47,762 nt of DNA, taken from positions 1 to 47,762 of the forward strand of contig CAMWPX010000002.1 of NCBI GenBank assembly GCA_947176205.1, given 5' to 3'. The translations under genes and the position numbers were made by a program. Every line of letters starts with the position of its first letter. Position 1 is the stretch's first letter. The notes beneath the pieces were generated by a model that ran no database searches, was not told the origin of the DNA, and saw only the letters and a list, made by a program, of their open reading frames with translations. Positions 11,771-42,384 of the stretch are shown piece after piece. This DNA comes from an uncultured Porphyromonadaceae bacterium (lineage in GTDB: Bacteria > Bacteroidota > Bacteroidia > Bacteroidales > Muribaculaceae).

Positions 11771-12310
11771 ATGAAATTTTATTCTATCCTTACCGTCGTA
11801 GCCATGACAGCAGCCCTCACATGCTGTTCTGCCGCTAAAAAGAACAAGACCAACAAAGGTGAACAGGAGATAACCCAACTATGTAACTACTATACTGATG
11901 AAACCACTTTCTACGGCAACGGTATAGCTGAAAGCACCGATATGCAGATGGCTAAAGACAAAGCCACTACATCAGCCCGCGCACAGATTTCTTCCACACT
12001 CAATATAGCTGTGGAAAACTTCGTGAAACGTTACCGCACCGACACCAACGATACTCTTGACCAAAAGACCGAAGACCGTCTGCAGACTCTTACCATACAG
12101 ACTCTCGCCAACTCCACCGTGTGCTGCGAGCGTATAGTAAGAGCGGAAAACGGCAAATACCGTGCTTACGTATCAGTATCTCTTCCCAAAGCCGTGGTTG
12201 CTGATGCCGCCAAAAAAGCTATGGCTGAGCAGAAAGAAGCTACACTTGACGACCGTGCCGGTGCTTTTGACAAAATTGTCGAACAGGAAATAGTCAAAGC
12301 CGGTAAATAA
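11771..12310 (+). CDS. LPP20-family lipoprotein
   Basis: This is a 179-residue probable lipoprotein starting at the ATG at 11771; the ORF track begins at an upstream TTG. The signal sequence MKFYSILTVVAMTAALTCCS ends in an LTCC lipobox-like site, so it is likely lipid-anchored and processed by LspA. The LPP20 pattern is clear: FYGNGIAESTDMQMAKDKATTSARAQISSTLNIAVENFVKRY, then VCCERIVRAENGKYRAYVSVSLPKAVV. It is the same module as residues 30-135 of the upstream protein, here as a stand-alone unit. The stop codon overlaps the next start as TAATG, so translation of the transglutaminase is coupled to it. Confidence 0.85.
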   Translation: MKFYSILTVVAMTAALTCCSAAKKNKTNKGEQEITQLCNYYTDETTFYGNGIAESTDMQMAKDKATTSARAQISSTLNIAVENFVKRYRTDTNDTLDQKTEDRLQTLTIQTLANSTVCCERIVRAENGKYRAYVSVSLPKAVVADAAKKAMAEQKEATLDDRAGAFDKIVEQEIVKAGK

Positions 12311-26476: not shown

Positions 26477-27379
26477 TCAAAACGAAAGGGTTTCGGAGGG
26501 AGAAATATAGCGGCGGAGTATGCGGGCATCGGAATCAAGCAAAAATATGGTGGGTAACTGAGGTATATGATAAAGTTCTTCTTCATCAATCATGCCATCA
26601 GGCGATACTCCTACAACCCAACTATCAGGTAATACGATATTACCTTTGAATGCCGATGTACCATATGGATTTATAAACAAAAGAGTCAATTTTTTATCTT
26701 TGACCAACTGTGATACATGTTCATCATGGATCAGACGATATTCGAACAGTTCACAATCGTGACAGCCCGGGTTATAAAACACCAAGAGGGTGAGTGGCGT
26801 ATCTTTTACAACTTTATGAAGAGTATTGGAGTTACCGGTTCTGTCAGTAAAGACAAAATCGGTAGCCGGCGAACCGACACGATGCAGTTCAAGCTGCGAT
26901 GCGCGGTAAGCGAGTATCAGCGAATCGGTATGATTCAATGCCGGTGAGTCAAGTAACTTGTGAGTCACTATATCATAACAATCCACATTATAAACCGGAG
27001 ATTCCGGCTCGTCAAGATATTGTGCCGAACAGTCAAATATAGTGTGTACAGCCTCAGCACTGACCGAAGCGTCTTTAACCATCTTACCCACAGCTTCGGC
27101 TATACTCAAAGAATCGGTATGCGGAACAAGACTATAAAAATTGGCAAGGTTCTGCTCCATAAACGTGCGGTCAGCCACAGCGAGTGAGTCAGTCCAATCC
27201 ATTGCGTCCCAGAAATGAGCCATCACATAAGCGGCTCGCTGCGATGTAACAGTCAAAGTATCAGGAACCGGAGGTAAAGGCAATTCCCTTATGCCGGTAT
27301 AAAAATTATCGCCAGATGCGGCAAGATTAAGAGTGATGCACCCGGTCATAACCGAAATTATGGCAAATGTACGTTTCAT
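26477..27379 (-). CDS. DUF5106 protein with thioredoxin-like domain
   Basis: This is an exported or lipid-anchored 300-residue protein. I start it at the ATG at 27379 (MKRTFAIISVMTGC), which gives a proper signal sequence. MTGC could be a lipobox; an ATG at 27406 is the alternative. The N-terminal half is DUF5106 (RAAYVMAHFWDAMDWTDS). From about residue 160 there is a TlpA/AhpC-like thioredoxin fold (VGSPATDFVFTDRTGN, TLLVFYNPGCHDCELFEYRL) with CxxC active site CHDC, and a cis-Pro in IPQLPTIFLLD. It probably acts as a periplasmic thiol-disulfide protein. It is the last gene of the minus-strand fimbrial run, immediately after an accessory pilin gene. A role in pilus assembly is only suggested by position. 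Confidence 0.85.
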   Translation of the reverse strand: MKRTFAIISVMTGCITLNLAASGDNFYTGIRELPLPPVPDTLTVTSQRAAYVMAHFWDAMDWTDSLAVADRTFMEQNLANFYSLVPHTDSLSIAEAVGKMVKDASVSAEAVHTIFDCSAQYLDEPESPVYNVDCYDIVTHKLLDSPALNHTDSLILAYRASQLELHRVGSPATDFVFTDRTGNSNTLHKVVKDTPLTLLVFYNPGCHDCELFEYRLIHDEHVSQLVKDKKLTLLFINPYGTSAFKGNIVLPDSWVVGVSPDGMIDEEELYHIPQLPTIFLLDSDARILRRYISPSETLSF

Positions 27380-27395
27380 ATAACCACTCTTTGAT

Positions 27396-28550
27396 TTAGT
27401 ATTCATTACCAAAAGTCGTCACACATCTCACGATGCAGGCATCCGACCTAAAGATATTGTCACTATTTGAACCAAAGCTATAAGAACTTCTCGCACCATC
27501 ACCATCGTTAAGGTTATGAATGAAAACATTTACTATTACATGGGTGTTGCGCGGCATCTGCGACAGATTGGGAAGATAGGCCTTATACTCAATGTCGTTC
27601 ATACGCATACGCACCATGTAATTCAAATCATCATTCTCTTGGGTGGGGTCGTGATATTTACTCTCAAGGAGATAAAATACAGGCAAGTCCACCGGAATGT
27701 TGTCGCCTTTAGCGGTAATGCCAGTATATTCACGCACAAACGAATAGTAATCGTCACCACCTACATTGGGCACTTCAAAGGAAGTTATCTCGTGAACATC
27801 GTTGTAAACGGCGGCATTGGGGAAAAGATATTCACGGGAGGATACTTTGTCGATAGCAAGACTCTGTATATCGAAATCAATATCCTTTAACTCATTCGTT
27901 ATATGGAACTCGAACTTCACGGCTGCCCGCGTAAGAAAAAGGTTATACGGAAACACCACCTTGGGTGATTCCGGATCTGTAAGAGGAATGTCTATCTTAT
28001 GACATTCAGCCATAGGCAATACTCCATTAAGAGTAGCTGTATCAGCATCAAGCGTGATATTCAATGCCGCAATCTCGGCAGCAGGAAATTTGTCGCCGGC
28101 TTCAAGGGCTGAAAAATCATAGTCAATCAGCGGAACTTTCTCTCCGCTGGCAGCAGTACGGCAGGCATTCTCATTGGCAAGAAGATACACGGATTTTTCT
28201 TCACCGGAAAGCACCTGATACTGAAACGAACCAACAGCGACGAGCGGGTTATTGAGAAATGGCGTTGAGATGAAATCGTTATGCTCGATAGTTAGGTCGG
28301 GACGTACAATGATTATACGCAATTCCTGCATCATCTCGTTTGCTCCCGCAACCGCGGAATAATCCGTACGGCTACCGGAAGAAGCATTGGCAAGAGCAAT
28401 ATGCAGATGCATGAATGCCTGACCCGCTTCCGGCTCTACCGGCAGCACAGGATTCAGGGTGCTGTCAACCGACTGACTGCACGACGACACAGCTACAGCA
28501 GCAAGTACCACCGCAAGAATACTGATAATATGCCGGATTTTAATAATCAC
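27396..28550 (-). CDS. Accessory pilin-like lipoprotein (Mfa2/fimbrillin-related)
   Basis: This is a 384-residue lipoprotein starting at GTG 28550, 2 bp after the anchor B stop. The signal sequence ends in SSC. The fold pattern is fimbrillin-like, with repeated beta segments such as QELRIIIVRPDLTIEHNDF, VYLLANENACR and LTRAAVKFEFHI (a core fimbrillin strand). Shortly after the first strand comes SGSR, which looks like the arginine-cleavage site of type V pilins that is absent from anchors. So, despite lying where a second anchor might be expected, it is more likely a polymerised accessory or tip subunit, comparable in position to Mfa3/Mfa4. The family name is tentative. Confidence 0.75.
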   Translation of the reverse strand: MIIKIRHIISILAVVLAAVAVSSCSQSVDSTLNPVLPVEPEAGQAFMHLHIALANASSGSRTDYSAVAGANEMMQELRIIIVRPDLTIEHNDFISTPFLNNPLVAVGSFQYQVLSGEEKSVYLLANENACRTAASGEKVPLIDYDFSALEAGDKFPAAEIAALNITLDADTATLNGVLPMAECHKIDIPLTDPESPKVVFPYNLFLTRAAVKFEFHITNELKDIDFDIQSLAIDKVSSREYLFPNAAVYNDVHEITSFEVPNVGGDDYYSFVREYTGITAKGDNIPVDLPVFYLLESKYHDPTQENDDLNYMVRMRMNDIEYKAYLPNLSQMPRNTHVIVNVFIHNLNDGDGARSSYSFGSNSDNIFRSDACIVRCVTTFGNEY

Positions 28551-28552
28551 TG

Positions 28553-29614
28553 TTATTCTACATCAATATCGTTAATTCTAACCACCCAGTCGTTAATTTT
28601 TACTTCAACCCGATTCCACTGGTCATTCTCGTTGAGAAGGAAAAGCATGGTCCAGTGACTCTGACGGTCAAGATATTCCTGAGCATCCATATCTGCATAA
28701 TGCTGGCTACGCATCTGTAAAAGGAGATTATTCAAAGGTACATCAAGAGTGGACTTGGTACTTCCGGATTTGGTGATACGAAGTATGGGACCGACTTTTT
28801 TAGATTCAGCCCGGGCGGCATCAGCCACCTGAGCGTCAGTAACAAGACGTGCTATAGAGAACTCACCGTAAGCTGCCAAAACAGCCGAACCATCATCCAT
28901 GGCACCCATCACAGCCTGACCTGTAGCCCAAGGTCTGTATGTTACGGCACCGACAGGCTTCACTTTGTTGTCATGAGTCATGTGAGTGTTATCATCAATA
29001 AGTTCCCATGTAAAATCAGTGGGATCAACAGGCTTGCCGGTAACATGCTGCAGAAGGACACGCACATTATTCGTATCCTTAATCATTTCCACGGTAGCTT
29101 CGGTATAGACTCCGGTGGTCTTGCCCACAGAGATGTTGACCGAACCATAATACAAGTCATGCACAGGAGCCGTAGGCTCGCCCTGATGATGTACCGGCTT
29201 CATGGTCAATGCAAGTTCGGTAAAATGCTGACCGACCGAAGGAGCTCCAGCAGGATGAGCGAATGAAGTATTTTCACATTCCAGACCACCATAGGCTACC
29301 ACACGATATTTACCCTCGGGTAAATCCACAGTCATACGATAATTCTCATCGGCAAGGACAGAAGATGTCTCCGTACGTGTCAGAACAAGTTTATCGGATT
29401 CATCGTAGATATATACCGTCAGACAATCAACGGCATGCATGAACGCATTGGCATACTCCATGTTGTAATCATAGATGAACCGCAATTTGGCACCACACAC
29501 GGATTCGGGCGAATCATTAGATTCAGTTCCACATGAAGTGATTACTGAAACCGCCAACACAGCCATCATCATAGCTGACACCGCTTTTATATATAGTTTG
29601 TCAAAAATTGCCAT
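28553..29614 (-). CDS. Mfa2/FimB-type fimbrial anchor lipoprotein (copy B)
   Basis: This is a 353-residue lipoprotein (start at ATG 29614; an ATG at 29626 is also possible) with lipobox VITSC. It resembles the Mfa2/FimB anchor family. FIYDYNMEYANAFMHAVDCLTVYIYDESDKLV opens the first domain, PEGKYRVVAYGG is a recurrent anchor motif, and EYLDRQSHWTMLFLLNE followed by KINDWVVRIND closes it, closely echoing EYLDRRSDYSALFFIDN in copy A. No arginine cleavage site is seen after the first strand, as expected for an anchor that stays lipid-attached and limits pilus length. It follows stalk pilin B, separated by a terminator-like hairpin. Confidence 0.85.
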   Translation of the reverse strand: MAIFDKLYIKAVSAMMMAVLAVSVITSCGTESNDSPESVCGAKLRFIYDYNMEYANAFMHAVDCLTVYIYDESDKLVLTRTETSSVLADENYRMTVDLPEGKYRVVAYGGLECENTSFAHPAGAPSVGQHFTELALTMKPVHHQGEPTAPVHDLYYGSVNISVGKTTGVYTEATVEMIKDTNNVRVLLQHVTGKPVDPTDFTWELIDDNTHMTHDNKVKPVGAVTYRPWATGQAVMGAMDDGSAVLAAYGEFSIARLVTDAQVADAARAESKKVGPILRITKSGSTKSTLDVPLNNLLLQMRSQHYADMDAQEYLDRQSHWTMLFLLNENDQWNRVEVKINDWVVRINDIDVE

Positions 29615-29642
29615 AATCAGGGTCATAGGGGGGGAAGAGAAA

Positions 29643-29673
29643 ATAAGGGCAACGCGGCTCGCGCCACCCTTAT
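29643..29673 (-). terminator. Terminator-like hairpin between stalk pilin B and anchor B
   Basis: On the minus strand ATAAGGG pairs with CCCTTAT (7 bp) around a G/C-rich loop with an inner GCG/CGC pairing, and TTTTCTC follows. It lies between the stalk stop and the anchor start and would partially end transcription after the abundant stalk message. A run of seven C follows just before the first possible anchor ATG. Confidence 0.6.
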
Positions 29674-29701
29674 GGTTCTATCGTAACGGACAGAGTGCCG
29701 A

Positions 29702-31714
29702 TTAGAATTCGATGTTGTTGACACGAACGACCCAAGGAAGCACCTCGCACTCAACGGTAAGATAAACATCACCTTTTTCATTAGGAGTATCTGGCGTGGG
29801 AGGTTCGGGGTCATTTTCAGAGATACGCGGGTGACCAAGCTGCTTTATGTTGGTAACAGCGAGTTTATATACGTTGTTACGAACCACAGCAAATTCCATG
29901 GGCCCCATCTGGCTGGCTACGTTATTGTCGTTATGACGGTTCCAATAATAGTAATAGCAGTAGTAGCCCCAGCCGTCATCAACATCATTACTTGCCTGAT
30001 AGATAGTGATACCGCTACCGGTAGCGGCCTTCTTGAACGCAAGGAGAGCTGCATCAGATATACGCCCGTCTTTATCCCACTGATTCCACAGATAATTGGC
30101 ACTGCCGGTATCTTCAGCGAGTTCATCATAATCCTCACCTGTACCGCCATTGCCGAACACAGCTTTATAAAGAGTGTTTGTACGGTTCCATTCCTGGGTA
30201 TCGGCACTATAAGATACAGAGATAGCCTGCTGGCGTATATTGGGCCATGAACAATAAAGGATATTGCTATAAGCGTAGATTATCGGGCGGGTTTTAGATG
30301 AAACAAGTACATCGCCAACGTTTGCAATAGCGTTATAGAGAGCCTGGTCATATTCATCGGCGGAGTTTTTAAGTTCTTCAGTAACCTCCATCTTACCCTT
30401 GAATACCACACCGGTAGTGATACCGTTAACCTGATTGCGAGCTTCACCGGGGATGGTGTTTTCAGTTACATAACGCCATACTTTGTAATCACCGTATTTC
30501 TTATCGGTATCCCAATCTGGATTGTCATCATTACCATTTTTAAGTACATCTTCGATGCGTGACAGATACCAGCGGTTAGTCGTTCCGGTGTTATCACATA
30601 CACCGTTATCATCAAAGAAAGAGTAATTGAAATACTTGCTGAACTGGGTCTCAACACCATCCATCTTTTCCTGAGCGTATGCGTCAACCACGTAGTTACC
30701 TGTTAAACCGGGAACGGGAAGACCGTTGTTATCGGTATACCATGGCATTTCAGAGCCACAAAGTATAGAATTAGTAGGAGTGCCGTTAGCAGAAACCCTA
30801 CGGAGGAAGTAGAATGAATTGCTCATGTTGACAAGAAGCATCTTATTAAGCTTGATATTCACATGAACATCCCCGATAGTACCATCCTCATTCACATGGC
30901 GAACCACAGGATAAGTATTGGCAGGCAGATTGAATTCAGCATTAGCAGCAATATCCTTACTACCGTCACGGAAATCAAAACGGGCGCATGCGCGTTCTAC
31001 CTTCACAGCACCTTTACCGGCACCGCCGTTATTGATTTCTTTGTCTTCGCCTTCAGAGTTCACTCCGGAAAGATTAAACGGATTAGTCTCAACACTGAAC
31101 GGATTCCAGTCATCGATAGATTTAGGAAGAGTACGGGTAGCGATTTCAGAGTTGGACATCAGGAAGTAATTGTTTGCCCAGATGGATTCACCTTCACCGA
31201 GCTGACACATGGCATTATACCAATCGGCAGCCACGACGTTCTCACTAAATACCTCAAGAAGGTCACTGGTAGGATTACAGAATACAAACACATGGATATC
31301 TGTGTGGGCACCGCCGGTCAAGCCTGCATAATAATCTGCAAGGTCGCTCTTGCTTATTTTACCTTTAGCAGAGTAGCTTTTACCGTTATTAATCGAAACT
31401 ATGCTGTTATCAACCAAAGCATGAGCTATATACTCATTGTTGGACTGCTTGGCAAGCACTATAAGCATTGAAGACACGCGGTTTTCAGCATCACTACCTA
31501 CTTCACTTCCACCGGTAGAAGAGCCGGGACCGGATGTAAAGCTACGCGAGCCTTCGGGCATAGAAACGACAACCTGCATGTAAACACCCGAGCCATCAGC
31601 AACAGTATTACCATTGCCATCGGGATTTCCGGGATTATCTACAACCACATCGTCGGAGCAGGATGCAAACATAGCTAATGAAAGCAGACCTACGAAAAGA
31701 GATTTAATTTTCAT
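29702..31714 (-). CDS. Mfa1-family major fimbrial stalk subunit (copy B)
   Basis: This is a 670-residue type V pilin precursor. The lipoprotein signal MKIKSLFVGLLSLAMFASCSDD is almost identical to that of copy A. After an acidic/Gly/Asn linker and a first strand (GVYMQVVVSMPEGSRSF), the GSR site is where a trypsin-like protease should cut to free the groove for donor-strand exchange. Middle segments such as VERACARFDFRDGS are typical of fimbrillins. The C-terminus (VYLTVECEVLPWVVRVNNIEF) is the conserved strand and W-motif region of Mfa1. It is larger than P. gingivalis Mfa1 (about 560). A 228-bp gap separates it from the tip gene, with no -7 box seen. Confidence 0.87.
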   Translation of the reverse strand: MKIKSLFVGLLSLAMFASCSDDVVVDNPGNPDGNGNTVADGSGVYMQVVVSMPEGSRSFTSGPGSSTGGSEVGSDAENRVSSMLIVLAKQSNNEYIAHALVDNSIVSINNGKSYSAKGKISKSDLADYYAGLTGGAHTDIHVFVFCNPTSDLLEVFSENVVAADWYNAMCQLGEGESIWANNYFLMSNSEIATRTLPKSIDDWNPFSVETNPFNLSGVNSEGEDKEINNGGAGKGAVKVERACARFDFRDGSKDIAANAEFNLPANTYPVVRHVNEDGTIGDVHVNIKLNKMLLVNMSNSFYFLRRVSANGTPTNSILCGSEMPWYTDNNGLPVPGLTGNYVVDAYAQEKMDGVETQFSKYFNYSFFDDNGVCDNTGTTNRWYLSRIEDVLKNGNDDNPDWDTDKKYGDYKVWRYVTENTIPGEARNQVNGITTGVVFKGKMEVTEELKNSADEYDQALYNAIANVGDVLVSSKTRPIIYAYSNILYCSWPNIRQQAISVSYSADTQEWNRTNTLYKAVFGNGGTGEDYDELAEDTGSANYLWNQWDKDGRISDAALLAFKKAATGSGITIYQASNDVDDGWGYYCYYYYWNRHNDNNVASQMGPMEFAVVRNNVYKLAVTNIKQLGHPRISENDPEPPTPDTPNEKGDVYLTVECEVLPWVVRVNNIEF

Positions 31715-31734
31715 AAATGTGTGATTGATAAAAA
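31665..31734. repeat. Direct repeat, copy at the 5' end of stalk gene B
   Basis: The stretch covers the start codon, the signal-peptide codons and part of the 5' leader. The 40 bp from 31695 to 31734 are identical to 40034-40073, and the rest of the signal-peptide region differs at only a few bases. The two copies lie in the same orientation 8339 bp apart. Confidence 0.9.
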
Positions 31735-31942
31735 TTATTGTATTGTATTTTATTTCGAAGATGAATTCATTACCGACAAAACAGCCATAATCAGATACTT
31801 CATAAAAAAGAATCTGATGTGCGGCTCTTTAGGTTTAACGTAGTGATACTATAAAAATTACATAAGGCTGACAGAAAAATTCCCCTAATGAAAGAATTAA
31901 TCCGTCGGCCTATGTAGAATGTTTTCTCCGCACCGGAAAATA

Positions 31943-34900
31943 TTACTGATAAATCAATTTTATCGGGAGCGCATCAGATGAGTATGCAACGGAGGTTGAA
32001 CTATATTGATGTGTTCTATCGGTCCACCCTCCTAGTGAATTATAGGCGTAGGGATTGAAAACGAGGGTACGATAGTTGATGTCCCATGAAGCATAATCAG
32101 GATATGGTTTATTCAAATGTCCGTCAGATGTGCCGGGTTTCGTCACGGGCTGCTTAATCCAATAAAGTCCTCCGGGATCACGATAAAGATTATATGTGTA
32201 GGGACGGTTGCGGTTACCTGTTCCTACCAACACCTCACGCAAATTACCATAAGTGAGCGAACCCACACCGGGATCGGCAATTGGAGCGTTGTCGGTGCCG
32301 TAAGGAGCAGTGCACGCTCGACGTATCTGCCCTTCGGAACCGAGGGGAAAGATAATATTTCTACCATCGTTTTCATCGTAGACAACACATGCACGCACTC
32401 CGCGCTCATCATCATTTCCAAGATTATCAAAGTCGGTATAGCCACAAGCCTTTTTGTAATTAGACTGCGTAGTCGTGGCTCCGTCGGCATATACAATGCC
32501 ATAACCGAAGTCGCAGTTAGCGAGCAGGCTCTGATAATTTTCAGCTGTAGGAACGGAGAATTTCTCATTGTCACGGAATCCACCTACAGCCGTCCATGTA
32601 TCGGCCCAATGTTTCGTGTAACGTTCCTGTGACGCTCCATAATTAACCCATGCATAGCCTTGAATCGTGTCCCATTTAGCAGTTCGGCTATCATCGACCG
32701 TATTTGATGCGGTGATATGAGTCGTTAACAACTTAACACCGGTAACCGACTGAAGCCAGCCACAGCCATTCTCGATATTCTTTTCCCTGATACTATAGTT
32801 GTATTGACATCTCTTAAGAAGAGAGCCAACTGACAGCGGGCTTCTGGTCAAAGCTACAGGCACGGAAGTTTCATCAGTGGGTGCAACAGTGTTAGGACTG
32901 TTGTCGCCTGCTGCAGATGTGGCATACACGTTGTAGCAACTCCAATTGGCATCACCGAGCCGGACACCCTTATGATAGCCCTGCCTTACGAAGATGAGGT
33001 GGAAGCAGTTATAGTCGTGATATTCAACTTTTATAACGCCTGAACGTGTATGGTCATCACTGATTATCCCACTTGGCTTGTACTTAAACACAATATCGTC
33101 GTCAGTAACACCTTTAATAGTGTCACCCTTCACACCATTGCGGTCGTAAAGCTCAATGAAGCTCTCGGTCTGACGGTCGACGTATGCCCGCCAGGGACCG
33201 TCGGACGTGAATGTCACGAAATAGTCAGCATCAGCCTGTGGCAGAACCATCAGTTTAATTTCAAACTCGTCATCTCTACCGGCATCGCGGTAAATGGCCT
33301 TGGGATTCTCGATTCGCGGCACTTGATAAATCGTGGCCATGCGCTCGGTTTCCCATTCTCCCTCTTCGTTTTTGAAATCTATCATCTTATCGCCTGAACC
33401 GGTCTTTTGCCATAACGTGAAGCGTACCTTAGCATAACGGTAATAGGCATTGAACGGGTTATTTCCGGTAAAGTCAGAGGAAGGAACCATTTCCTTATTT
33501 CTGGTGTACATAGGGATTTTCATATGTACGGATTTGTCAATGGGATCGTAGGAGGTATTTGCACCGGTGAGAGAGTATTCGTTTACGGCGAGATTATTAG
33601 CCTTATAATACCATTGGAGATACGAATTGGCATGACTACCATAGCCATTGGCATCCAACCCACCGGTCTGAGCCTGAACTTCGGCATCAGTACCGATAAC
33701 GTCGGCAGTATTGGGTCGAAGCGAGAGGAACCCGACGTAATTTCCACCTGTGTAGGGATCTCCTTTGTAAGTGTCCTTGTTGTATTTGACAGGTGTATAG
33801 ATGTCAAGTGAGCCCGTGTTCCACGCAAATCCGTATTCGACTGCTTGAGAACCTACAAATTCATCCGGACTGCAGTTGTGTTTTCGGTCCCATGGAATCC
33901 AGTTATTCTCGACGATTTCAGCCTTGACGTAGAATTGAGACTTATCCCATTCCTCAGGAAGAATCACACGGGCGGGGAAATCCATCCGCTGATCGTAGAG
34001 ATAAGAGATATAGTAAGGCTCGGGAGTAATCAGTGTGGGAGTATACTCCTTGTAGGAAATATGCCAGTCGGCTTCATTGGCCCAACCGCGGAATTTAAGA
34101 GTGAGCTTGTAGTGATAGTTGCGTTCAGCATTGTAATCGTATGTGCTGTTTTTACCGAGCATGAAGCGATAACGAATCGGACCCTGAGATACTTTATCTT
34201 TGTGGCGACTATCATAGTATCCTACGACTTCTACATAGGTTCCGTAAAGTCGTGAATCCTTATAGTCAGGACCATCAGCAAGACTATCAATGGGAGTACC
34301 GACTGCATCGGGGTCCTGACGCTTGTCCATCGATGCCAGACCGGGATAGTTTCCCTGCATATTCTCATAAAAATAGAGCGAGGGGTCGCTTTCCGTGTGT
34401 TCAGTCTGACCGCCATAAGGTAATCCCTTTGAAAGAACGATATTCCATTTCTCGTGGTCGGCGTCGTTTTCTTCACCGGCATTGTAGTAAGTGAACGATT
34501 CACCTCTTTTAATGAGCTGGTCAGCATCAGAAGGCGCATTTACCTCACCTAAAGCACAACTTGCCGGTATATCATGTATAGTCACGCTCTTGATATATAT
34601 ACGTACGTTATCCTTAAGGTCGGAGGCATCAAACGACACGGTAACCTTAGAAACCAAACGCTTAATCCACGAATGGAGCGAAACCGCACTTTGATTTATC
34701 ACAAGCATAGGAGCATCGAATCCGGCAGATGTTTCAGCCGACGCCGGAGACGTCATAGTAAAATAGCCGAACATCTGATTATCAAGACTGACATTGGTCT
34801 GCCAGTCAAATCGTTTGCCGCGCAAATCGCTTATCGTGGTACAGTCCACATCGGTGAGGTCTACATTAGCCACAGCAAACATCTTATACCGTCCGTATGG

Positions 34901-35356
34901 AATATGAGTGAGCCTGAAAGTAGCGCTTGGTGTCTTCTCGCCAGTTCCGCCTATAGTTCCATCCGCGGGTCCAACGTTTTGATTACCGGACGGCGTCACC
35001 GTTTCGGCATCGACGGGAACGTCTGAATTACCTGCCTGGTCAATATTGAAATTTGACCCGGGCAAGGTGTAACCTGTCTCACTGTCATAGAGACGCACCT
35101 TTTCATATAGTCCGGCCTCGGAGCCATCGGCATTAATTTTATAAATAACAATCCAAAGTTCATCCACCCTGTCAACAGCATTGCCGGCTGAACGTGAACC
35201 GAGAGCTGGCTCGAGCGAATGAAATTCAATCAGAACATTGAGATTTGCCTCCCCTTCGCCTATCACGGTAGTGTCATAGAGCAACTCATCCACACACGCA
35301 GTGAAGATTAGAACCGGGAGTAAGAATAGGAAGGATATATAGCGAGAGAATTTCAT
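31943..35356 (-). CDS. Large fimbrial tip/adhesin-like lipoprotein (DUF4906-like)
   Basis: This is a 1138-residue lipoprotein starting at ATG 35356 (MKFSRYISFLFLLPVLIFTAC). The first 300 residues are fimbrillin-like: ANLNVLIEFHSLEPALGSRSAG holds a likely arginine-cleavage site (GSR), then VDELWIVIYKINADGS, FRLTHIPYGRYKMFAVANVD and LVSKVTVSFDAS. The central and C-terminal parts are unlike pilins and contain segments typical of Bacteroidales DUF4906-type tip proteins, such as FHLIFVRQGYHKGVRLGDANWSCYNVYATSAAG. The middle may hold an adhesion domain. By size and position, it is probably the distal tip of the pilus, like Mfa5 or FimE. The ligand is unknown. Confidence 0.78.
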   Translation of the reverse strand: MKFSRYISFLFLLPVLIFTACVDELLYDTTVIGEGEANLNVLIEFHSLEPALGSRSAGNAVDRVDELWIVIYKINADGSEAGLYEKVRLYDSETGYTLPGSNFNIDQAGNSDVPVDAETVTPSGNQNVGPADGTIGGTGEKTPSATFRLTHIPYGRYKMFAVANVDLTDVDCTTISDLRGKRFDWQTNVSLDNQMFGYFTMTSPASAETSAGFDAPMLVINQSAVSLHSWIKRLVSKVTVSFDASDLKDNVRIYIKSVTIHDIPASCALGEVNAPSDADQLIKRGESFTYYNAGEENDADHEKWNIVLSKGLPYGGQTEHTESDPSLYFYENMQGNYPGLASMDKRQDPDAVGTPIDSLADGPDYKDSRLYGTYVEVVGYYDSRHKDKVSQGPIRYRFMLGKNSTYDYNAERNYHYKLTLKFRGWANEADWHISYKEYTPTLITPEPYYISYLYDQRMDFPARVILPEEWDKSQFYVKAEIVENNWIPWDRKHNCSPDEFVGSQAVEYGFAWNTGSLDIYTPVKYNKDTYKGDPYTGGNYVGFLSLRPNTADVIGTDAEVQAQTGGLDANGYGSHANSYLQWYYKANNLAVNEYSLTGANTSYDPIDKSVHMKIPMYTRNKEMVPSSDFTGNNPFNAYYRYAKVRFTLWQKTGSGDKMIDFKNEEGEWETERMATIYQVPRIENPKAIYRDAGRDDEFEIKLMVLPQADADYFVTFTSDGPWRAYVDRQTESFIELYDRNGVKGDTIKGVTDDDIVFKYKPSGIISDDHTRSGVIKVEYHDYNCFHLIFVRQGYHKGVRLGDANWSCYNVYATSAAGDNSPNTVAPTDETSVPVALTRSPLSVGSLLKRCQYNYSIREKNIENGCGWLQSVTGVKLLTTHITASNTVDDSRTAKWDTIQGYAWVNYGASQERYTKHWADTWTAVGGFRDNEKFSVPTAENYQSLLANCDFGYGIVYADGATTTQSNYKKACGYTDFDNLGNDDERGVRACVVYDENDGRNIIFPLGSEGQIRRACTAPYGTDNAPIADPGVGSLTYGNLREVLVGTGNRNRPYTYNLYRDPGGLYWIKQPVTKPGTSDGHLNKPYPDYASWDINYRTLVFNPYAYNSLGGWTDRTHQYSSTSVAYSSDALPIKLIYQ

Positions 35357-35377
35357 TGTCATGATAATGGTTTATTA

Positions 35378-36694
35378 TTAATCGCGGTCAAGTCCGAAGA
35401 ATGGCTCAAGCACACACGAACGGTAAGGCACCACATCGACCTGCAGATTGAGTTTGGCTCCGAAATCATTGACCGACAAAGTATAGATATGATTTCTCAG
35501 TATGTTTTGTCCGAAAGAAAAATTGACACCATTGTATGAGGTCATAGGCACGTAAAAATCAAGGTATTCCATCGTGGTGTCCGCCTTGCGATTAGCGATT
35601 GTTACGTGAAACACAGGCATACCCTCATCTACATTGTTGTTAGGATGACCTATCCTCTGCTCCGGCACAAAACCGATGAACACATTACCTGTACGTTGCG
35701 ACGACGGAGTTATAGTCCATGACTCCGGTATAGTGCCCAACTTATATGTCTCTGCGAGGGTCAGATTGCTATTTTCCTGAAAGATATTGGGAGTATGAAC
35801 CTGCTGTCCGTCCTCGTAATTGAGAGCTCCGGCAGGAAGTTGTCTTGCCTGAGACTGCGAACTGAGAAATTCTACAGAAGTAATGCAAGGATATCCGTAA
35901 TCATCTTTTTCCTGAATATTATCCACGACCCTGACTTTTGCAAGCGCGCGGAGAAGATTGACCTCACCAAGATATATACGTCCCCCCGGAGTGCTATAGA
36001 CAAGGTCAGCTTCTGTAATAGCAAACATATTAGTACCGAACATAGGGACATGATTCTTCTTATTGCTATAAATAGTCTCCGCATCTGGTCCGCCATCGGC
36101 ATTATATATATCGCTCATAGGAAAGTTCCACTCTGCAAGTTGCGCTATGACTGTGGGGTAAGTCTGACCGGTAATGGCATCCCACTTGGCGGTTGCACTT
36201 GCGCCGGACTGCAAGCAGTTAGCCAAAAGCAAGAAGCGGAAAGAAATTATAGACTTACCTTCGCGTGTTATCTCATATCCGTCAAGCACATCTTTAAGGT
36301 CATCCTTACGTATCATGAGATTGACGAAATAACTACCCTTACCACCCGCAACAATATTGATGCGCGCATCATCGGAATCAAGCAGATTCGTAAGCTTATA
36401 CACGAGCTTTTCATCGGAAGTAGAACCGGCTATTTTAGCAAAGACAAATATTCCGAGATCCCTTATATCGATACCGTCCTCGAAGTCACGAAATTCGCTG
36501 TCGGTCTCGCCATGACCCTGACTGTCGGCGCGGGAGCGTGTAATCGCACTGCCAGTCACCATATTGAAACTGAGCGACATGCATTCACCCGACACGACAT
36601 ATGTAGGGTCAGGGGCAGGAACTGGTTCATCTGACGAGGAACACGCTGCCAGCAACAACAAGGTGGGTATGAGGAAGATATATATATATTTCAT
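35378..36694 (-). CDS. Accessory fimbrial subunit (FimC/Mfa3-like)
   Basis: This is a 438-residue lipoprotein, started at ATG 36694 (MKYIYIFLIPTLLLLAAC) because it puts the lipobox at the usual place. Fimbrillin features include the first strand SGECMSLSFNMVTGSAITRSRADS with an arginine-cleavage candidate (RSR), IDIRDLGIFVFAK, YFVNLMIRK, and VNLLRALAKVRVVDN, a core strand of the family. The C-terminal NHIYTLSVNDFGAKLNLQVDVVPY matches the conserved last strand, including the VxPY end. It sits between anchor A and the tip gene, as accessory genes do in P. gingivalis loci. Its exact place in the fibre is inferred. Confidence 0.8.
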   Translation of the reverse strand: MKYIYIFLIPTLLLLAACSSSDEPVPAPDPTYVVSGECMSLSFNMVTGSAITRSRADSQGHGETDSEFRDFEDGIDIRDLGIFVFAKIAGSTSDEKLVYKLTNLLDSDDARINIVAGGKGSYFVNLMIRKDDLKDVLDGYEITREGKSIISFRFLLLANCLQSGASATAKWDAITGQTYPTVIAQLAEWNFPMSDIYNADGGPDAETIYSNKKNHVPMFGTNMFAITEADLVYSTPGGRIYLGEVNLLRALAKVRVVDNIQEKDDYGYPCITSVEFLSSQSQARQLPAGALNYEDGQQVHTPNIFQENSNLTLAETYKLGTIPESWTITPSSQRTGNVFIGFVPEQRIGHPNNNVDEGMPVFHVTIANRKADTTMEYLDFYVPMTSYNGVNFSFGQNILRNHIYTLSVNDFGAKLNLQVDVVPYRSCVLEPFFGLDRD

Positions 36695-36721
36695 CTGATT
36701 CACTGGAATCATTAAAATCTA

Positions 36722-37768
36722 TCAGTATATAGGGTCAGACTGCGGAGGCACAACCGCCCAACCGCATATATAAATACCGGCTGCAGTATACCATCCCAAA
36801 TTATTATCAATAAAGAATAATGCCGAGTAATCGCTGCGACGATCGAGATACTCTTGGTCAGAATATTGGTTGAAACGGTTACCCTTGGCATATATGAAAT
36901 AGTCGATAAGAGGAATATGGATTATGCGTACACCATCAGTATTACGTATAATGTCAAGATAAGCATCGCCGTCAACCATAAGCCGGCTCACGGACATTTC
37001 ATAAAGAAGTGAGGAACGCACGGGCTGGTCATCATCGCCATCGGCACGTCCCTTAGTTGTCTCACCGTAGAGTACGCTCCACGGCGTATAAGTTACAGCG
37101 GGGCTATCGTCCCTGACTGCGTTGTCCCACGCCAGCCATGAATCGGCGTAGGTGAATGTAACGGTAAAATCACTTTCTTTTAGAGCGGTACCGTCTTCAT
37201 TTACGAGCATCACTGCGATGTCGTTGGTGTCCTTTATCAACGGTATGGTTACTGTAGTAATAGAAGGAGCGTTAGGTTTGATTTTATGCTCGACTCCTGA
37301 TTTCTTGCCGTGAAATAAGGCCTTGAAATGCGACGAACTTACGTTCAATCCGTCTTTTTCTATAGTATTAAGTTTCATTTCGAGCTCCTCCATACTTACC
37401 GGTGTGTAAGTGGCAAGAGAGAAATCATCATTGCCATCCAGTCCGCACCATGCCACGAAGTCATACGTTCCTCCTCCGAGTGGTGTTTCCAGCATGAAAT
37501 CTGGGTCTTTAAGTCTATCGCCCGAAGCTGAACCGGTCCAGACTAAATTTCCGGCCTGGTCAAAAGCCCACACATTGACACTGTGTACCTGCGCGGCAAA
37601 TGCCTCACCACGGTCAAGAGTGTAGTTGAACTGAAACTTCACATTGAGCTGCGCGGGACATTCAGGCAGGTCGTCATATATAAGCGAGGAGCAACCTGTC
37701 ATTGTCAGACCAAAGGACAGCACCATGATAATCAGACTGAATATGTTGCGGATAGTATTTTGAAGCAT
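36722..37768 (-). CDS. Mfa2/FimB-type fimbrial anchor lipoprotein (copy A)
   Basis: This is a 348-residue lipoprotein with lipobox TMTGC. The anchor pattern is clear: CPAQLNVKFQFNYTLDRGEAFAAQVHSVNVWAFDQAGNLV (Mfa2/FimB opening), GGGTYDFVAWCGL, a middle with IPLIKDTNDIAVMLVN, and EYLDRRSDYSALFFIDNN near the end. No arginine site follows the first strand, so it should stay lipid-anchored at the outer membrane and hold the fibre base. It is separated from stalk A by an 11-bp GC hairpin, and is followed 10 bp later by the stop-to-start junction with the accessory subunit. Confidence 0.87.
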   Translation of the reverse strand: MLQNTIRNIFSLIIMVLSFGLTMTGCSSLIYDDLPECPAQLNVKFQFNYTLDRGEAFAAQVHSVNVWAFDQAGNLVWTGSASGDRLKDPDFMLETPLGGGTYDFVAWCGLDGNDDFSLATYTPVSMEELEMKLNTIEKDGLNVSSSHFKALFHGKKSGVEHKIKPNAPSITTVTIPLIKDTNDIAVMLVNEDGTALKESDFTVTFTYADSWLAWDNAVRDDSPAVTYTPWSVLYGETTKGRADGDDDQPVRSSLLYEMSVSRLMVDGDAYLDIIRNTDGVRIIHIPLIDYFIYAKGNRFNQYSDQEYLDRRSDYSALFFIDNNLGWYTAAGIYICGWAVVPPQSDPIY

Positions 37769-37788
37769 AAATGATTAGGATTAAAATA

Positions 37789-37816
37789 CCCCGGAGGGAG
37801 GGATTTCCCTCCGGGG
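37789..37816 (-). terminator. GC-rich hairpin between stalk pilin A and anchor A
   Basis: CCCCGGAGGGA (37789-37799) and TCCCTCCGGGG (37806-37816) form a perfect 11-bp stem with a 6-nt loop. On the minus strand it is followed by TATTTTAA, a weak U-tract. It lies in the stalk-to-anchor gap, so it would lower anchor expression relative to stalk and protect the stalk mRNA 3' end. Confidence 0.7.
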
Positions 37817-37863
37817 TTATCTTTGGATGTGCACTAAATTCTAATAGCGCGAGGAATAGGATG

Positions 37864-40053
37864 TTAGAGTTTAACGTTCTGCGTAGGAACTACAGCCCAT
37901 TTCAGAATATTCACGGAGTAAGCCATGAAATAATCTTCAGTGTTGGCCGGGGGAACGATAGGATTATCATCGTCACCGATACCGGAAGCAAGACCCACAA
38001 TTTCGGTAACATTTACCTGATAGCTGTGGTTACGAACCATACCGAAGTCACCTACACGCACACGGTTCCAATCGATTTTGGCAGCGTTCTTCTGTTCATT
38101 ACCCTGACGGTACCAACCGAAGTGTTTAACGGGGATTGAGTAATAGGCATGACCTGTAGTGTAGTAGTAGGAGAGACCTACCTGACGCATAAGCGTTACG
38201 TTAGCATCAGTCAGATGAATCTGAGTGTTCTCATCAAAAGTTGCAGCGTTATCGGGGACAATCTCCATATAACCTCCACTGGTCACGATGTAGATACCAT
38301 CAGCATCTTCAGCGCTGGTAAACTGGAGTGTGCGAGCATTGTTCTGAAGCTTCAACACGGTAGTAGTATTGCCGTCATAATTCTGCTTAACTTTATCGGA
38401 TATTTCAGAAACTGTAAGCGCATTCACCATCATGTCTATATCAGTGGGGTTAGCTATAGTCAGACGGGTATATTCGCCGGCATCCTTTTCTTCGTCGGTC
38501 TGAGATTTTCTGTAAAGAATAGTTGTCTGAGCAAAGAAACGAAGGAGCATTGACTCGCCACCGTCTATAGCGCTCTTAACACCATTAGAGGTATTGAAAT
38601 AGATGTAAGGACGGTCTTCTGTCACTTCCGGACTGGGCACATTACCGGAAAGATAAGTGTAGAAACTGGTGCCTTCGGGAAGAGTAGTGCCGTCAAGATT
38701 GAGGTTGTACTGACCTACATAAATTACGGAAGCAACAGCGGCATTGGGATTCTTGGAGTTAAGCGCACGATAACCCACGGTAGTCTCACGGAAATACTGG
38801 GGCGCAGTCTCCGTAGCGGCAAAGCCTATGTTGTTACCATTAGTAGCAAGTTCGTTATATGAGATATACTTCTGATTAACAGTAATATCCTTGAGATCGG
38901 AAGATACCTCGGGATATTCCTGTGTAAAGTAAGCGGGTGACATTCCCCAGAATGAACGGTGAAGGTCAGGATTGTTCCATGCCCAACGGTTACCGGCTGA
39001 AAGTACATTGGCACCGTCGGAATAATCCCAGCTGTTGTTACCCTCCACATAAGTAGCAGGATTTACACGGGCATTTAGCTGACCGAAAGTATAGTTATCG
39101 GCAAGAATTCCACCTAACTCAGATTCCTGACGGAACGATTTGATAACATAAGAGCTGTTTGATTCAGCATTTACAGCCCAATACTGAGGTACGAACTGGA
39201 GAGTAACAAGCTTGGTAGTGGTGCTTGAAGTTGCTGCAGGATTTTCTGCGGTCAGGTCATAGACGCGGGTAGCTGTAACGTAATTAGTGGGGTCAACAGC
39301 ATTGAAAGCAAGCTTGGTTGCATAACGCTCCACATATATATTAAGAGTGTTATTAGAACCAAGAGCGTCTTCGGCAGCCTTTTCGGTAGTATATAAATAC
39401 GTTTCAGGAATAGGTACCGCAACCTGAGGCAGTCCGTCATTAGGGGCAAGACCGGTAGTAGCTCCTGCACTGCGGGGATAGTACACAGAGTTACTCATAG
39501 CAAAGTACTTCGTCGCACCGCCACCTATCGTACTCCATGTGGCTGTACGCGATATGGTCTGAATCACATTGAGAGGATTCTGGAGCGTAGCGGGCGAAAT
39601 CGGGTTGATGTAGCAGATAACCTGAGCAGGCTTTTTCTCACCTTTCTTAACGCTTACCGGAACTACCGACTTATAAGAGCGTTCGATAGTTAAATCGTCA
39701 TTAATATCTTCATTAAGATGAGAGTCATCGAGTTCAACAGGAACGATGTCACCGACTACGTTACCATCTTCGTCATAGAATACGAAATAGGCGTTGTTAA
39801 TCTGATTCTCAGAATTCGGAGTGCCATCTTCAAAATCAGTACCGGGAGAAGGGGTACCATTGTCACCAGCGGCGCGGGACTCGGTTCCGTCACCGGCGAT
39901 TTTCATACTGACGTAGAATGTCTGGTCTGCTTCCAGAATAGGATTCCCGTTACTGTCGGGATTCTGAATAGCTTCTGCAACCACATCGTCGTCAGAACAA
40001 GACGCAAACATAGCTAAAGAAAGCAGTCCTGCAAAAAGAGATTTAATTTTCAT
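37864..40053 (-). CDS. Mfa1-family major fimbrial stalk subunit (copy A)
   Basis: This is a 729-residue type V pilin precursor, longer than copy B. The signal MKIKSLFAGLLSLAMFASCSDDD differs from that of copy B by one residue up to the double Asp, although the mature regions are very different. The first mature strand QTFYVSMKIAGDGTESRAAGD contains a cleavage candidate (ESR). VERYATKLAFNAVDP is a core fimbrillin strand. The C-terminus HSYQVNVTEIVGLASGIG and MAYSVNILKWAVVPTQNVKL resembles Mfa1 C-terminal strands. It lies 32 bp after the OmpA-like gene, which makes it the first stalk gene of the locus and probably the main pilin. Confidence 0.87.
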   Translation of the reverse strand: MKIKSLFAGLLSLAMFASCSDDDVVAEAIQNPDSNGNPILEADQTFYVSMKIAGDGTESRAAGDNGTPSPGTDFEDGTPNSENQINNAYFVFYDEDGNVVGDIVPVELDDSHLNEDINDDLTIERSYKSVVPVSVKKGEKKPAQVICYINPISPATLQNPLNVIQTISRTATWSTIGGGATKYFAMSNSVYYPRSAGATTGLAPNDGLPQVAVPIPETYLYTTEKAAEDALGSNNTLNIYVERYATKLAFNAVDPTNYVTATRVYDLTAENPAATSSTTTKLVTLQFVPQYWAVNAESNSSYVIKSFRQESELGGILADNYTFGQLNARVNPATYVEGNNSWDYSDGANVLSAGNRWAWNNPDLHRSFWGMSPAYFTQEYPEVSSDLKDITVNQKYISYNELATNGNNIGFAATETAPQYFRETTVGYRALNSKNPNAAVASVIYVGQYNLNLDGTTLPEGTSFYTYLSGNVPSPEVTEDRPYIYFNTSNGVKSAIDGGESMLLRFFAQTTILYRKSQTDEEKDAGEYTRLTIANPTDIDMMVNALTVSEISDKVKQNYDGNTTTVLKLQNNARTLQFTSAEDADGIYIVTSGGYMEIVPDNAATFDENTQIHLTDANVTLMRQVGLSYYYTTGHAYYSIPVKHFGWYRQGNEQKNAAKIDWNRVRVGDFGMVRNHSYQVNVTEIVGLASGIGDDDNPIVPPANTEDYFMAYSVNILKWAVVPTQNVKL

Positions 40054-40073
40054 AAATGTGTGATTGATAAAAA
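40004..40073. repeat. Direct repeat, copy at the 5' end of stalk gene A
   Basis: This is the partner of the repeat at 31665-31734. Positions 40034-40073 are identical over 40 bp, spanning the last leader bases, the ATG and the first signal-peptide codons. Further identity runs through the signal peptide with a few substitutions. Same orientation, 8339 bp apart. Confidence 0.9.
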
Positions 40074-40085
40074 AATTATTGTTAG

Positions 40086-41564
40086 TTATTTATTTGATTT
40101 CGAGGTTAAATTCAATTCTACGGAGTTTTTGACCCCCTTAATATTTTCAAGAGCGGCAGCTGCGGCAGCATTCGTAGGCGCGAGTTGCTCAAATATCGCT
40201 ATTGCTCCGTCGTAATCACCCGACATTCCTTTGTATACGCCACGGTAATATCTGGCTTCTTCGGAATCACCGGATTTTTCAAGGTAACGGACTGCACGGT
40301 CAAGTTCACCGCGGCGCAATGTGATTGCGGCAGCGTTTACATTAGCCACCGGGTCGGTTGGATAGAGAGCAGCTGCAAGCTCAAACACTTCCTGATATTC
40401 CGGCGAAGCAGGGTCATAAGTCTGACCGAGCAAATATAGTTCGTTGAGTGACAGTTTATTTGGTTCGGTACGCATCACGCGGGCTATCTCGTTGACATCA
40501 GTAAACGTACGAATTATGTACTGAATCTTGTAATCAGAGTGACGCAAGGCCGGGTATACATTTTCCAACAGGAATTTATACTGCTTGGGATAAGTATATC
40601 GTATCTTATTGTCCTTGGGATCAGGAGCAAGATTTGAGTCTATGATGGCAAGTATTTTCTCACGGTTGCCAAGAGTGGTATCGGAAACCACATAATTGCG
40701 TAATCCTTCCCAGTCTTCAGGCTCATAAGCTGTAGCTATAACCGAAGGGTCAAACGAGTAGAGGCTCTGCACGTAATCGGCAAGTGTAGCGGTACGCCCC
40801 TTGGCAAGACGGACATTGTTGGAGTAAGAACCTTCGGGCGATGCATAACCCTTGATAGTGATAGATGAGATTTGAGCCTCTGGATCGTTGACAACGAAGT
40901 CGATTGATTTGAGAATCTTCTCGATTTCGGCACGGTTGTTACGATAATCAGGTTTCAGCTCGGTACGGTTGACGGGGAAGTCAATGAAGGCAGACCCTTT
41001 GAGTTCACGCGTTTTCACGACTTCGGCTACCGGAGTCATAGTGATAAACGTAGGTGCAAACTCCATAATTTCAGGCAGCGGCGGACGGAAGTCAGCAGTG
41101 GTTATAAGCGTATCGATACTTTCCACCGGAGCACACGAACATCCGCGTAAATCTGTCACAAGCTTAACATCCACCGGATTCTGCTCCATCCATTCGCTGA
41201 ACGGAACTGCCGATGAGTATGCTACCACTCCAAGCTTACCTGCTCGCTGCATACGGTCAGATGACTCGATATCATTTTCGCGAAGATGCAGATAATAACG
41301 GTCACGTCCGGCAAGATAAAGCGAAGGGAAACGTACTTCATTTCCGAGCGAATCACTTGCCACAGGCGTAAAAATCACTTCGCGCGAAGATGACAGCTTC
41401 ACAGCGGAAGCATCGATATTCATTGCCACCTTAAGGCTGTCGGTAGCCGAGCGAGTAACGGACAGGTCTGACACCGGCAATTCAAGTGACGCCGAAGTCT
41501 GCGCGAAAGCGGCACCTGTCACGGCTGCGCCGCACAAAACCAATATGTATCTCAAAGTCTTCAT
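40086..41564 (-). CDS. OmpA-like and TPR-containing DUF3868-type protein of the fimbrial locus
   Basis: This is a 492-residue exported protein starting at ATG 41564 (MKTLRYILVLCGAAVTGAAFAQ). The ORF-track start is 22 codons upstream and lacks a proper signal. The N-terminal 170 residues are beta-rich (VIFTPVASDSLGNEVRFPSLYLAGR), consistent with DUF3868. Residues of about 190-290 are OmpA-C-like (DFPVNRTELKPDYRNNRAEIEKILKSI, ITIKGYASPEGSYSNNVRLAKGRTATLADYV), where Asp/Arg contact peptidoglycan. The C-terminal 110 residues are TPR-like. In Bacteroides, a pair of this gene with a DUF3575 gene precedes Mfa-type loci and may anchor or help assemble the fibre. Confidence 0.85.
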   Translation of the reverse strand: MKTLRYILVLCGAAVTGAAFAQTSASLELPVSDLSVTRSATDSLKVAMNIDASAVKLSSSREVIFTPVASDSLGNEVRFPSLYLAGRDRYYLHLRENDIESSDRMQRAGKLGVVAYSSAVPFSEWMEQNPVDVKLVTDLRGCSCAPVESIDTLITTADFRPPLPEIMEFAPTFITMTPVAEVVKTRELKGSAFIDFPVNRTELKPDYRNNRAEIEKILKSIDFVVNDPEAQISSITIKGYASPEGSYSNNVRLAKGRTATLADYVQSLYSFDPSVIATAYEPEDWEGLRNYVVSDTTLGNREKILAIIDSNLAPDPKDNKIRYTYPKQYKFLLENVYPALRHSDYKIQYIIRTFTDVNEIARVMRTEPNKLSLNELYLLGQTYDPASPEYQEVFELAAALYPTDPVANVNAAAITLRRGELDRAVRYLEKSGDSEEARYYRGVYKGMSGDYDGAIAIFEQLAPTNAAAAAALENIKGVKNSVELNLTSKSNK

Positions 41565-41626
41565 TATATCAACAGAAGTAAATGTATTCGGAATAGAGAT
41601 TAGATTATTAAAGGTAACTAATGATA

Positions 41627-42205
41627 TCAAAACACATACACCAGATTCACCGCAGCCTTTGTCGGACCAACATAGTGGTGAGGCTTGTCATTCTCGCTTT
41701 TGGAACCGCACTCTGTACAGGGAAAACGGTCAAAGCGGGTATATGCCCAGCCAAAACCGATTTCAGCCTCAAGATTCCAATGCTTGCCGAGAATCCAGCT
41801 ATAACCGTAAGCCACACCGGCTCCCACAAACCAGCCCTGTACACGGGTATCTTTCAACAAGCTGAAGTTTGTTCCGAGAAAATCGGGAAGTCCGGAAAGA
41901 TTGCCGAGATTATACTGACCGCCAAGCAGATGTGCGCCTATAAAATGACCGGTAAAATGGTCGCAGAACCAATAACGAGCCTCAGGCTGCAAAAGCCAGT
42001 GTTTCCAGCTATGGTCACTTACACGCCAGGCATTGAGGTTGCCGGAAACATCTATCGACCACTTCGGAGCCAAAAGTACTTCCGCACCGACATTGATTGT
42101 AGCAGCGGCATCATAAAGCAAGTTAGTCTTCACAGCTACATTTTGGGCTCGCAACGAACCCACGATGCCAAGAATAGTCAGTACAACCAATAACAAACGT
42201 TTCAT
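41627..42205 (-). CDS. DUF3575 outer-membrane protein, first gene of the fimbrial operon
   Basis: This is a 192-residue exported protein (ATG 42205, MKRLLLVVLTILGIVGSLRAQ). The mature part reads as an amphipathic small beta barrel: VAVKTNLLYDAAATINVGAEVLLAPKWSIDVSGNLNAW is the DUF3575 opening, followed by ARYWFCDHFTGHFIGAHLLGGQYN, and it ends with an aromatic AAVNLVYVF outer-membrane sorting signal. Function is unknown; its constant pairing with the OmpA-like gene suggests a role at the outer membrane in pilus assembly. It is the first gene after the promoter near 42330, which leaves a 5' leader of about 100 nt. Confidence 0.85.
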   Translation of the reverse strand: MKRLLLVVLTILGIVGSLRAQNVAVKTNLLYDAAATINVGAEVLLAPKWSIDVSGNLNAWRVSDHSWKHWLLQPEARYWFCDHFTGHFIGAHLLGGQYNLGNLSGLPDFLGTNFSLLKDTRVQGWFVGAGVAYGYSWILGKHWNLEAEIGFGWAYTRFDRFPCTECGSKSENDKPHHYVGPTKAAVNLVYVF

Positions 42206-42316
42206 AAGTATAGAATATGATATACGATTCATTAATTTCAACATACTATAGCACAATTACATACAATATCAAGACACAAATTCTTAACGCTAAGGAATGT
42301 GCAAAAATTCAGTGTG

Positions 42317-42348
42317 CAAAATTAAACAATATTTTACACATAAACAAC
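42317..42348 (-). promoter_or_regulatory. Consensus Bacteroidetes promoter of the fimbrial operon
   Basis: On the minus strand GTTG (42348-42345) is followed, after exactly 20 bp, by TAATTTTG (42324-42317), the same layout as the promoter at 7597. Start of transcription is expected near 42309, giving a leader of about 100 nt before the DUF3575 ATG. The surrounding DNA is extremely A/T-rich, and a C8 tract (42377-42384) lies about 30 bp upstream of the -33 box. Confidence 0.75.
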
Positions 42349-42376: not shown

Positions 42377-42384
42377 CCCCCCCC
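42377..42384. repeat. C8 homopolymer tract upstream of the fimbrial promoter
   Basis: Eight consecutive C (G8 on the transcribed direction) sit in an otherwise A/T-rich 240-bp intergenic region, about 30 bp upstream of the -33 box. Length changes by slipped-strand pairing could shift upstream activator contacts; this is inference. Confidence 0.6.

Follow-up and report, generated by a model that had tools for sequence, protein, structure and literature searches.

The Mfa1 and FimA fimbriae of Porphyromonas gingivalis (Mfa1-5 and FimA-E) are type V pili composed of a stalk, an uncleaved anchor and accessory tip proteins. Mfa2 is not cleaved and anchors the fibre, and the C-terminus of Mfa1 is required for polymerisation (PMC5789003). 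Mfa2 forms the base and stops elongation, while Mfa1 polymerises without Mfa3-5 (PMC5954841). Two distinct type V fibres are possible on one P. gingivalis cell (PMC5789003). These are encoded at separate places with a full set of genes each, whereas the locus described here has both sets in one gene run and the second set lacks a tip. The first-pass annotation had compared this locus with P. gingivalis, where a locus has one stalk and one anchor. This is a fair comparison but not the nearest one, which is the usual single-stalk locus of the Muribaculaceae. In about 150 Muribaculaceae loci, the standard layout is DUF3575, OmpA, one stalk, one anchor, accessory and tip, sometimes followed by a DUF5106-thioredoxin (Trx) gene. 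Single-stalk loci such as G151/L022, G147/L014 and G119/L100 have the same front (DUF3575 and OmpA), stalk, Mfa2-type anchor, accessory, tip of ~1100 aa and optional DUF5106-Trx gene as our locus, and follow the same leader and tail logic. However, they carry one stalk/anchor pair per front, whereas our locus has two co-directional pairs and one tip.

The window, which is the whole stretch of DNA analysed (47,762 nucleotides), belongs to a 1.93-Mb assembly in 187 contigs. Ten ORFs, all on the minus strand, span positions 26477-42256. They are listed below in gene order, with the two hairpins found between them.

41627..42256, minus strand: DUF3575 outer-membrane protein, gene 1 of the shared front (PF12099, 4.6e-74)
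40086..41630, minus strand: OmpA/DUF3868/TPR protein, gene 2 of the shared front (PF12984, 1.6e-7; OmpA and TPR matches weak)
37864..40053, minus strand: stalk pilin A, 729 aa, tail ...NILKWAVVPTQNVKL (Fimbrillin_C, 1.4e-12; PDB 9y6o profile match, 0.0011)
37788..37817, minus strand: hairpin of 12 pairs between stalk A and anchor A
36722..37768, minus strand: anchor pilin A, tail ...YICGWAVVPPQSDPIY (Mfa2, 3.7e-52)
35378..36712, minus strand: accessory A (adaptor/tip-complex pilin), tail VVPYRSCVLEPFFGLDRD (weak NCBIfam Mfa1/FimD similarity; family tails)
31943..35362, minus strand: cassette A tip protein, 1139 aa (DUF4906, 6.7e-8; 74-82% identity to tips of A-only loci)
29702..31714, minus strand: stalk pilin B, 670 aa, tail ...EVLPWVVRVNNIEF (Fimbrillin_C, 8.1e-20; NCBIfam Mfa1; PDB 4jrf, 7.4e-8)
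29643..29673, minus strand: hairpin of 14 pairs between stalk B and anchor B
28553..29626, minus strand: anchor pilin B, tail ...KINDWVVRINDIDVE (Mfa2, 1e-58; PDB 4qdg, 1.4e-79)
27396..28550, minus strand: accessory B, cut short and running in frame into a tip B remnant (aligned to the L022 accessory to about residue 351)
26477..27412, minus strand: DUF5106 and thioredoxin-like protein, 3' border of the locus (PF17127, 1.2e-22; 3' of the tip gene in L022)

This is the gene order that had been proposed from the letters alone, with all ten ORFs in place, matching Pfam domains and the DUF3575 frame ending at 42256. Both stalks match PF15495 (Fimbrillin_C) and both anchors match PF08842 (Mfa2), and a genome-wide search returned no Mfa2 or Fimbrillin_C match beyond these four genes. 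Stalk B scores 188 bits against the NCBIfam Mfa1 family major subunit model NF038041 (cut-off 130); stalk A has no NCBIfam match, and membership of that family is claimed for stalk B alone. The accessories have no Pfam match and weak NCBIfam similarity to Mfa1/FimD-type pilins, and the accessory A tail is kept across A cassettes. An AlphaFold model of stalk A (nine close relatives) was too weak to judge whether the protein has the two beta-sandwich fold, with a mean pLDDT of 54.6. Intergenic gaps are short, with three exceptions: 95 nt 3' of stalk A, 75 nt 3' of stalk B and 228 nt separating the tip gene from stalk B. The hairpins, one in each post-stalk gap, are strong and perhaps lower anchor output. 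By predicted gene content, a single DUF3575-OmpA front in this locus is followed by two stacked type V pilus cassettes.

The earlier description of two complete sets does not hold for set B. Pair A is accompanied by its own tip gene; for pair B, the tip gene is gone and accessory B ends in a fragment of a tip protein.

27396..27497, minus strand: tip B remnant, the C-terminal ~30 residues (SYSFGSNSDNIFRSDACIVRCVTTFGNEY), matching the ends of the L022 and L049 tips, with the tip-Trx junction kept

Accessory B aligns with the accessory of L022, a close B-only locus, to about residue 351, after which the conserved PYxxVxLNPxFG tail is replaced by GARSSYSFGSNSDNIFRSDACIVRCVTTFGNEY. This segment matches residues 1003-1026 of the 1031-residue L022 tip (46% identity; E 2.2 with a short query), and it also matches SDACYVRCVT near the end of the tip of L049, a B-type locus. 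The tip-Trx junction is retained: the stop codon precedes the Trx start by 16 nt in the window and by 15 nt in L022, within a shared GGTTATATG. The piece is short and its BLAST scores are individually weak, and the case is made by position, register and junction combined. Compared to L022, ~3.1 kb is missing from the window, and a search of the genome found no second tip B. Tip B has been lost, and an in-frame deletion appears to have taken nearly all of it, joining accessory B to its last residues. Since only this C-terminal remnant of its own tip is left, set B alone is not a complete type V pilus set.

We then compared the arrangement with other loci. An OmpA front lies immediately upstream of 95 of 123 distinct anchor genes, and for 75 of those the downstream side is resolved as well. 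Only in the window does one front serve two co-directional stalk/anchor pairs (1/123 distinct anchor loci). An order-wide search of 296 genomes gave 93 anchor matches (E<=1e-20); on the listed coordinates, the window is likewise the only place where anchors of the same direction lie within 12 kb of each other. The other comparisons covered the best ~150 matches, with many short contigs, so further tandem cases may exist. Four other candidates were rejected as tandems: L082 (G072) has a second 'stalk' (tail ILRWHETSQNVPG) with no recognisable anchor in its contig, and we read it as an accessory; in L023 and L145, the cassettes are set apart by fronts of their own; and L071 (G300) has two pairs that stand head-to-head with no front nearby. 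The stacked arrangement is real and rare. It should also be noted that in L078 and L147 the stalk cassette comes after a DUF5106-Trx gene and has the DUF3575-OmpA front downstream rather than upstream of it, and that L034, with a stalk lacking the usual tail and a tip in three frames, is probably a broken locus.

At such fronts, relatives have a single cassette, either A or B. The front of G147 is the same (OmpA 89% identical) and is followed by cassette A only (stalk 88%, tip 82%); no stalk B appears in the 478 nt by which its contig extends beyond the tip, and the genes flanking the locus are unrelated to those of the window. In G151, the front leads into cassette B with a tip, followed by Trx (identity to the window: 61% for stalk B, 38% for Trx), and the nearest B relatives compared are ~61-63% identical. 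The closest relative at the locus, among those compared, is a Paramuribaculum sp., so the gut bacterium from which the window comes falls within the Muribaculaceae. In six loci (L100, L123, L063, L139, L148 and L065), a stalk A body 83-87% identical to that of the window stands behind an OmpA that is only 39-51% identical. Because near stalk bodies stand behind distant OmpA proteins, cassette A has been exchanged between lineages or genera.

Each stalk gene in the window begins with a copy of the same leader.

39980..40073, minus strand: leader repeat copy 1 (5'UTR and stalk A signal peptide), 94-nt direct repeat
31641..31734, minus strand: leader repeat copy 2 (5'UTR and stalk B signal peptide), 94-nt direct repeat

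The two copies are 87% identical over the 94-nt repeat and 90% over 91 nt, compared to 24% for the stalk bodies, so the remark that the stalks share a signal peptide but little else extends to the DNA level. The genome contains just these two copies, with no silent leader elsewhere. The leader peptide MKIKSLF.GLLSLA.FASCSDD is common to window A, window B and G147; A stalks of other genera begin with MKKTYLFGAMAMGLLFTGCSDD and similar sequences. Leader peptides were compared here, and leader DNA identities to distant genera, which come partly from tiny alignments, were set aside. On this comparison, the signal peptide does not move with cassette A, and leader and front remain with the lineage. 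As a separate observation, contigs of G285 (L066/L067) and G034 (L069/L070) end within the stalk leader, as if one leader joined several stalk bodies in the population.

A Trp lies ~10 residues from the C-terminal end of stalks and anchors, the window pairs included, and this C-terminal strand Trp has already been described for Mfa1 and Mfa2 (PMC5789003). The new observation is an agreement, within stalk-anchor pairs, of the residues that follow the Trp. In the window, stalk and anchor A both end in …WAVVP.Q, and stalk and anchor B in …WVVR.N.I. Across loci, type R stalks (PWVVRVNNIEF) pair with type R anchors (NDWVVRINDxx) and type V stalks with type V anchors, and within type V, Pro at +4 and Gln at +6 occur jointly in both partners. 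Pair A is of type V with Pro/Gln and pair B is of type R. In 76 non-redundant pairs, the class at W+3 is concordant in 75, Gln+6 in all 76 and Pro+4 in 72, and mutual information peaks on the same-position diagonal at +1, +3, +5 and +6. In genomes with several loci, the true pairing beats the swapped one in 34 of 39 comparisons and loses in four, with a score of +61 for the window. The signal stays within V pairs that lack Pro (16 pairs; 0/20000 permutations as high). Permutation z-scores (11.6 for the non-redundant set) overstate independence, as the pairs share ancestry on the anchor tree. In the anchor-body tree, the R/V split is one clade and one ancient event, other tail features co-change only about two to three times independently, and independent-pair tests have too few events for significance. 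The putative Bacteroides anchor BthFim3B (PDB 4qdg) aligns with anchor B over nearly the full length (1.4e-79), tail KINDWTVRINDI included, while anchor A is in the other tail class.

An Arg processing motif, [STGP]R[ASTGV] at 15-70 residues past the lipobox Cys, is present in 76/76 stalks, 67/73 tips, 50/60 accessories and 18/76 anchors. Such a distribution would be expected if cleavage opens a groove in stalk and tip pilins while anchors stay uncleaved (PMC5789003; PMC12632263). Stalks and tips mostly have the motif and anchors mostly lack it, and cleavage at these sites is predicted. Given this pattern and the role of Mfa2 as base and terminator, the best reading of the anchor tail is a final donor strand, which would close the anchor's own fibre.

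The simplest history consistent with these data is that cassette A (stalk, anchor, accessory and tip) was placed between the front and a resident B cassette through one crossover in the leader; this would leave A ahead of the resident B and give both stalks near-identical leaders of the lineage's own type. Both stalks would be surface lipoproteins in which processing at the Arg site should expose a groove, and both anchors would be of the kind that mostly lacks that site. The anchor tail, of the same type as that of its own stalk, would serve as the final donor strand and cap its own fibre at the base. One transcript would then give two fibres that do not mix, A with accessory and tip and B with no tip of its own. 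Two separate fibres are favoured because each stalk's tail type matches its own anchor and not the other; that each tail type is excluded from the other's groove is assumed. On balance, if only narrowly, we consider it probable that the locus consists of stacked cassettes in which tip B was lost and that it makes two fibres that stay separate, one (A) with a tip and the other (B) lacking a tip of its own. More tentatively, the C-terminal tail may be a sorting code, in which the anchor copies the stalk tail and would enter the same groove, giving two unmixed fibres per operon with B as a tip-less companion.

The strongest competitor is that set B is a decaying remnant displaced by A, its stalk and anchor frames still open but with little expression or no fibre. 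In its favour are the loss of tip B and of the accessory B tail, and the position of B: a complete A set lies upstream, and the 228-nt gap ahead of B contains no exact -7 box. However, stalk B and anchor B are full length, their leader, processing motif and cognate tails are intact, and the hairpin layout is as in A. We regard decay as somewhat unlikely, and two segregated fibres with B tip-less as modestly favoured over it. It is improbable that the B fibre borrows the single remaining tip: tips do recombine across types (the tip of L113, a B-type locus, scores 1101 bits against the window tip, and that of L069, an A-type locus, 498 bits), but accessory B is without the C-terminal tail that other accessories keep. 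Still less probable is a mixed fibre of A and B stalks on either anchor. While the single gene run and near-identical leaders mean that the two stalks are probably exported alike, stalk and anchor tails match within and not between pairs, and the bodies are only 24% identical. Finally, it is least probable of all that the tandem is a chimera, assembled from an A strain and a B strain in the genome bin: although the genome is in 187 contigs and contigs of G285 and G034 end inside the same kind of leader, a join of two single-cassette loci through the leader would require OmpA sequence in the 208 nt that separate the tip from leader copy 2, and there is none; GC is alike in front, A and B (0.45-0.47), separating A neither from B nor from the front.

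Three features may bear on the expression of the locus.

42317..42324, minus strand: TAATTTTG, exact match to the Bacteroidota -7 box TAnnTTTG (consensus match only)
42377..42384, minus strand: G8 tract upstream of the operon promoter (C8 on the plus strand); G9 at the same place in G147
29628..29634, minus strand: C7 tract just before the anchor B start codon (run search)

An exact TAnnTTTG box is present upstream of DUF3575 and none is found in the 228-nt gap between the tip and stalk B, so the simplest reading is one polycistronic unit, in which the whole locus would be co-transcribed. The first-pass annotation had offered two fibres or a switch between them. Separate fibres are favoured by the match of each stalk tail to its own anchor. 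Switching has no support in the window: no short-range inverted repeats flank a promoter there, and we rejected an invertible A/B switch within it.

The G8 tract sits 52 nt upstream of the -7 box. Runs of at least seven G or C within 400 nt upstream of DUF3575 occur at 44 of 92 distinct fronts, compared to 21 of 623 other genes, many of which are divergent neighbours sharing the same tract. In 14 fronts, the run ends 18-22 nt ahead of a -7 box. Away from contig ends, only about nine such tracts occur in the genome, several of them in a TTAAC..G8-10TA setting before other genes. The element TTAAC-N3-5-G8-12-TA recurs, often ~20 nt before TAnnTTTG, and is strongly enriched upstream of type V pilus fronts, with examples at a few other genes of the genome (L150, L155, L166 and L167). 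It is possibly a slipped-strand or regulon promoter, and slippage at the G8 tract (G9 in G147) is possible. The C7 run before anchor B is nearly unique: among 141 anchor ORFs, a run of this kind within 120 nt was seen at only one other.

Invertible promoters (invertons) have been described near fimbrillin genes in gut bacteria (PMC11892184). Relatives of the locus have promoter segments flanked by inverted repeats, while the window has none. Inverted-repeat pairs with arms of at least 17 nt occur upstream of DUF3575 at 11 of 92 fronts (L007, L027, L035, L087, L140 and L141 among them), compared to 9 of 543 other genes and none in shuffles. The arms mostly have a TCTCT-N5-AGAGA-like dyad in common, and a -7 box often lies 9-14 nt from one of the two; these pairs are probably invertible promoters. 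Inverted repeats also lie between head-to-head pilus loci in L071 (same contig as L138), in L026/L077 (between two DUF3575 genes) and in L145 (between two fronts), with -7 boxes that point one way (one in L071, one in L026/L077 and three in L145). In L071, A and B cassettes face each other across a 113-nt inverted repeat (89%; 11955-12067 and 12255-12367). These loci are candidate two-way promoter switches between two pili. Outside the Muribaculaceae, G505:C20 and G453:C4 have divergent anchor pairs 6-9 kb apart, and head-to-head pilus loci may be common in the order.

The locus touches on how a type V anchor joins the shaft and on how several pili of this type are kept separate in one cell. 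Tail matching is a sequence rule open to swap mutants, and this locus has both tail types in one operon. Furthermore, the stacked cassettes and the tip scar point to adhesin exchange between gut species, in which front and leader would stay while the stalk-anchor-accessory-tip block moves.
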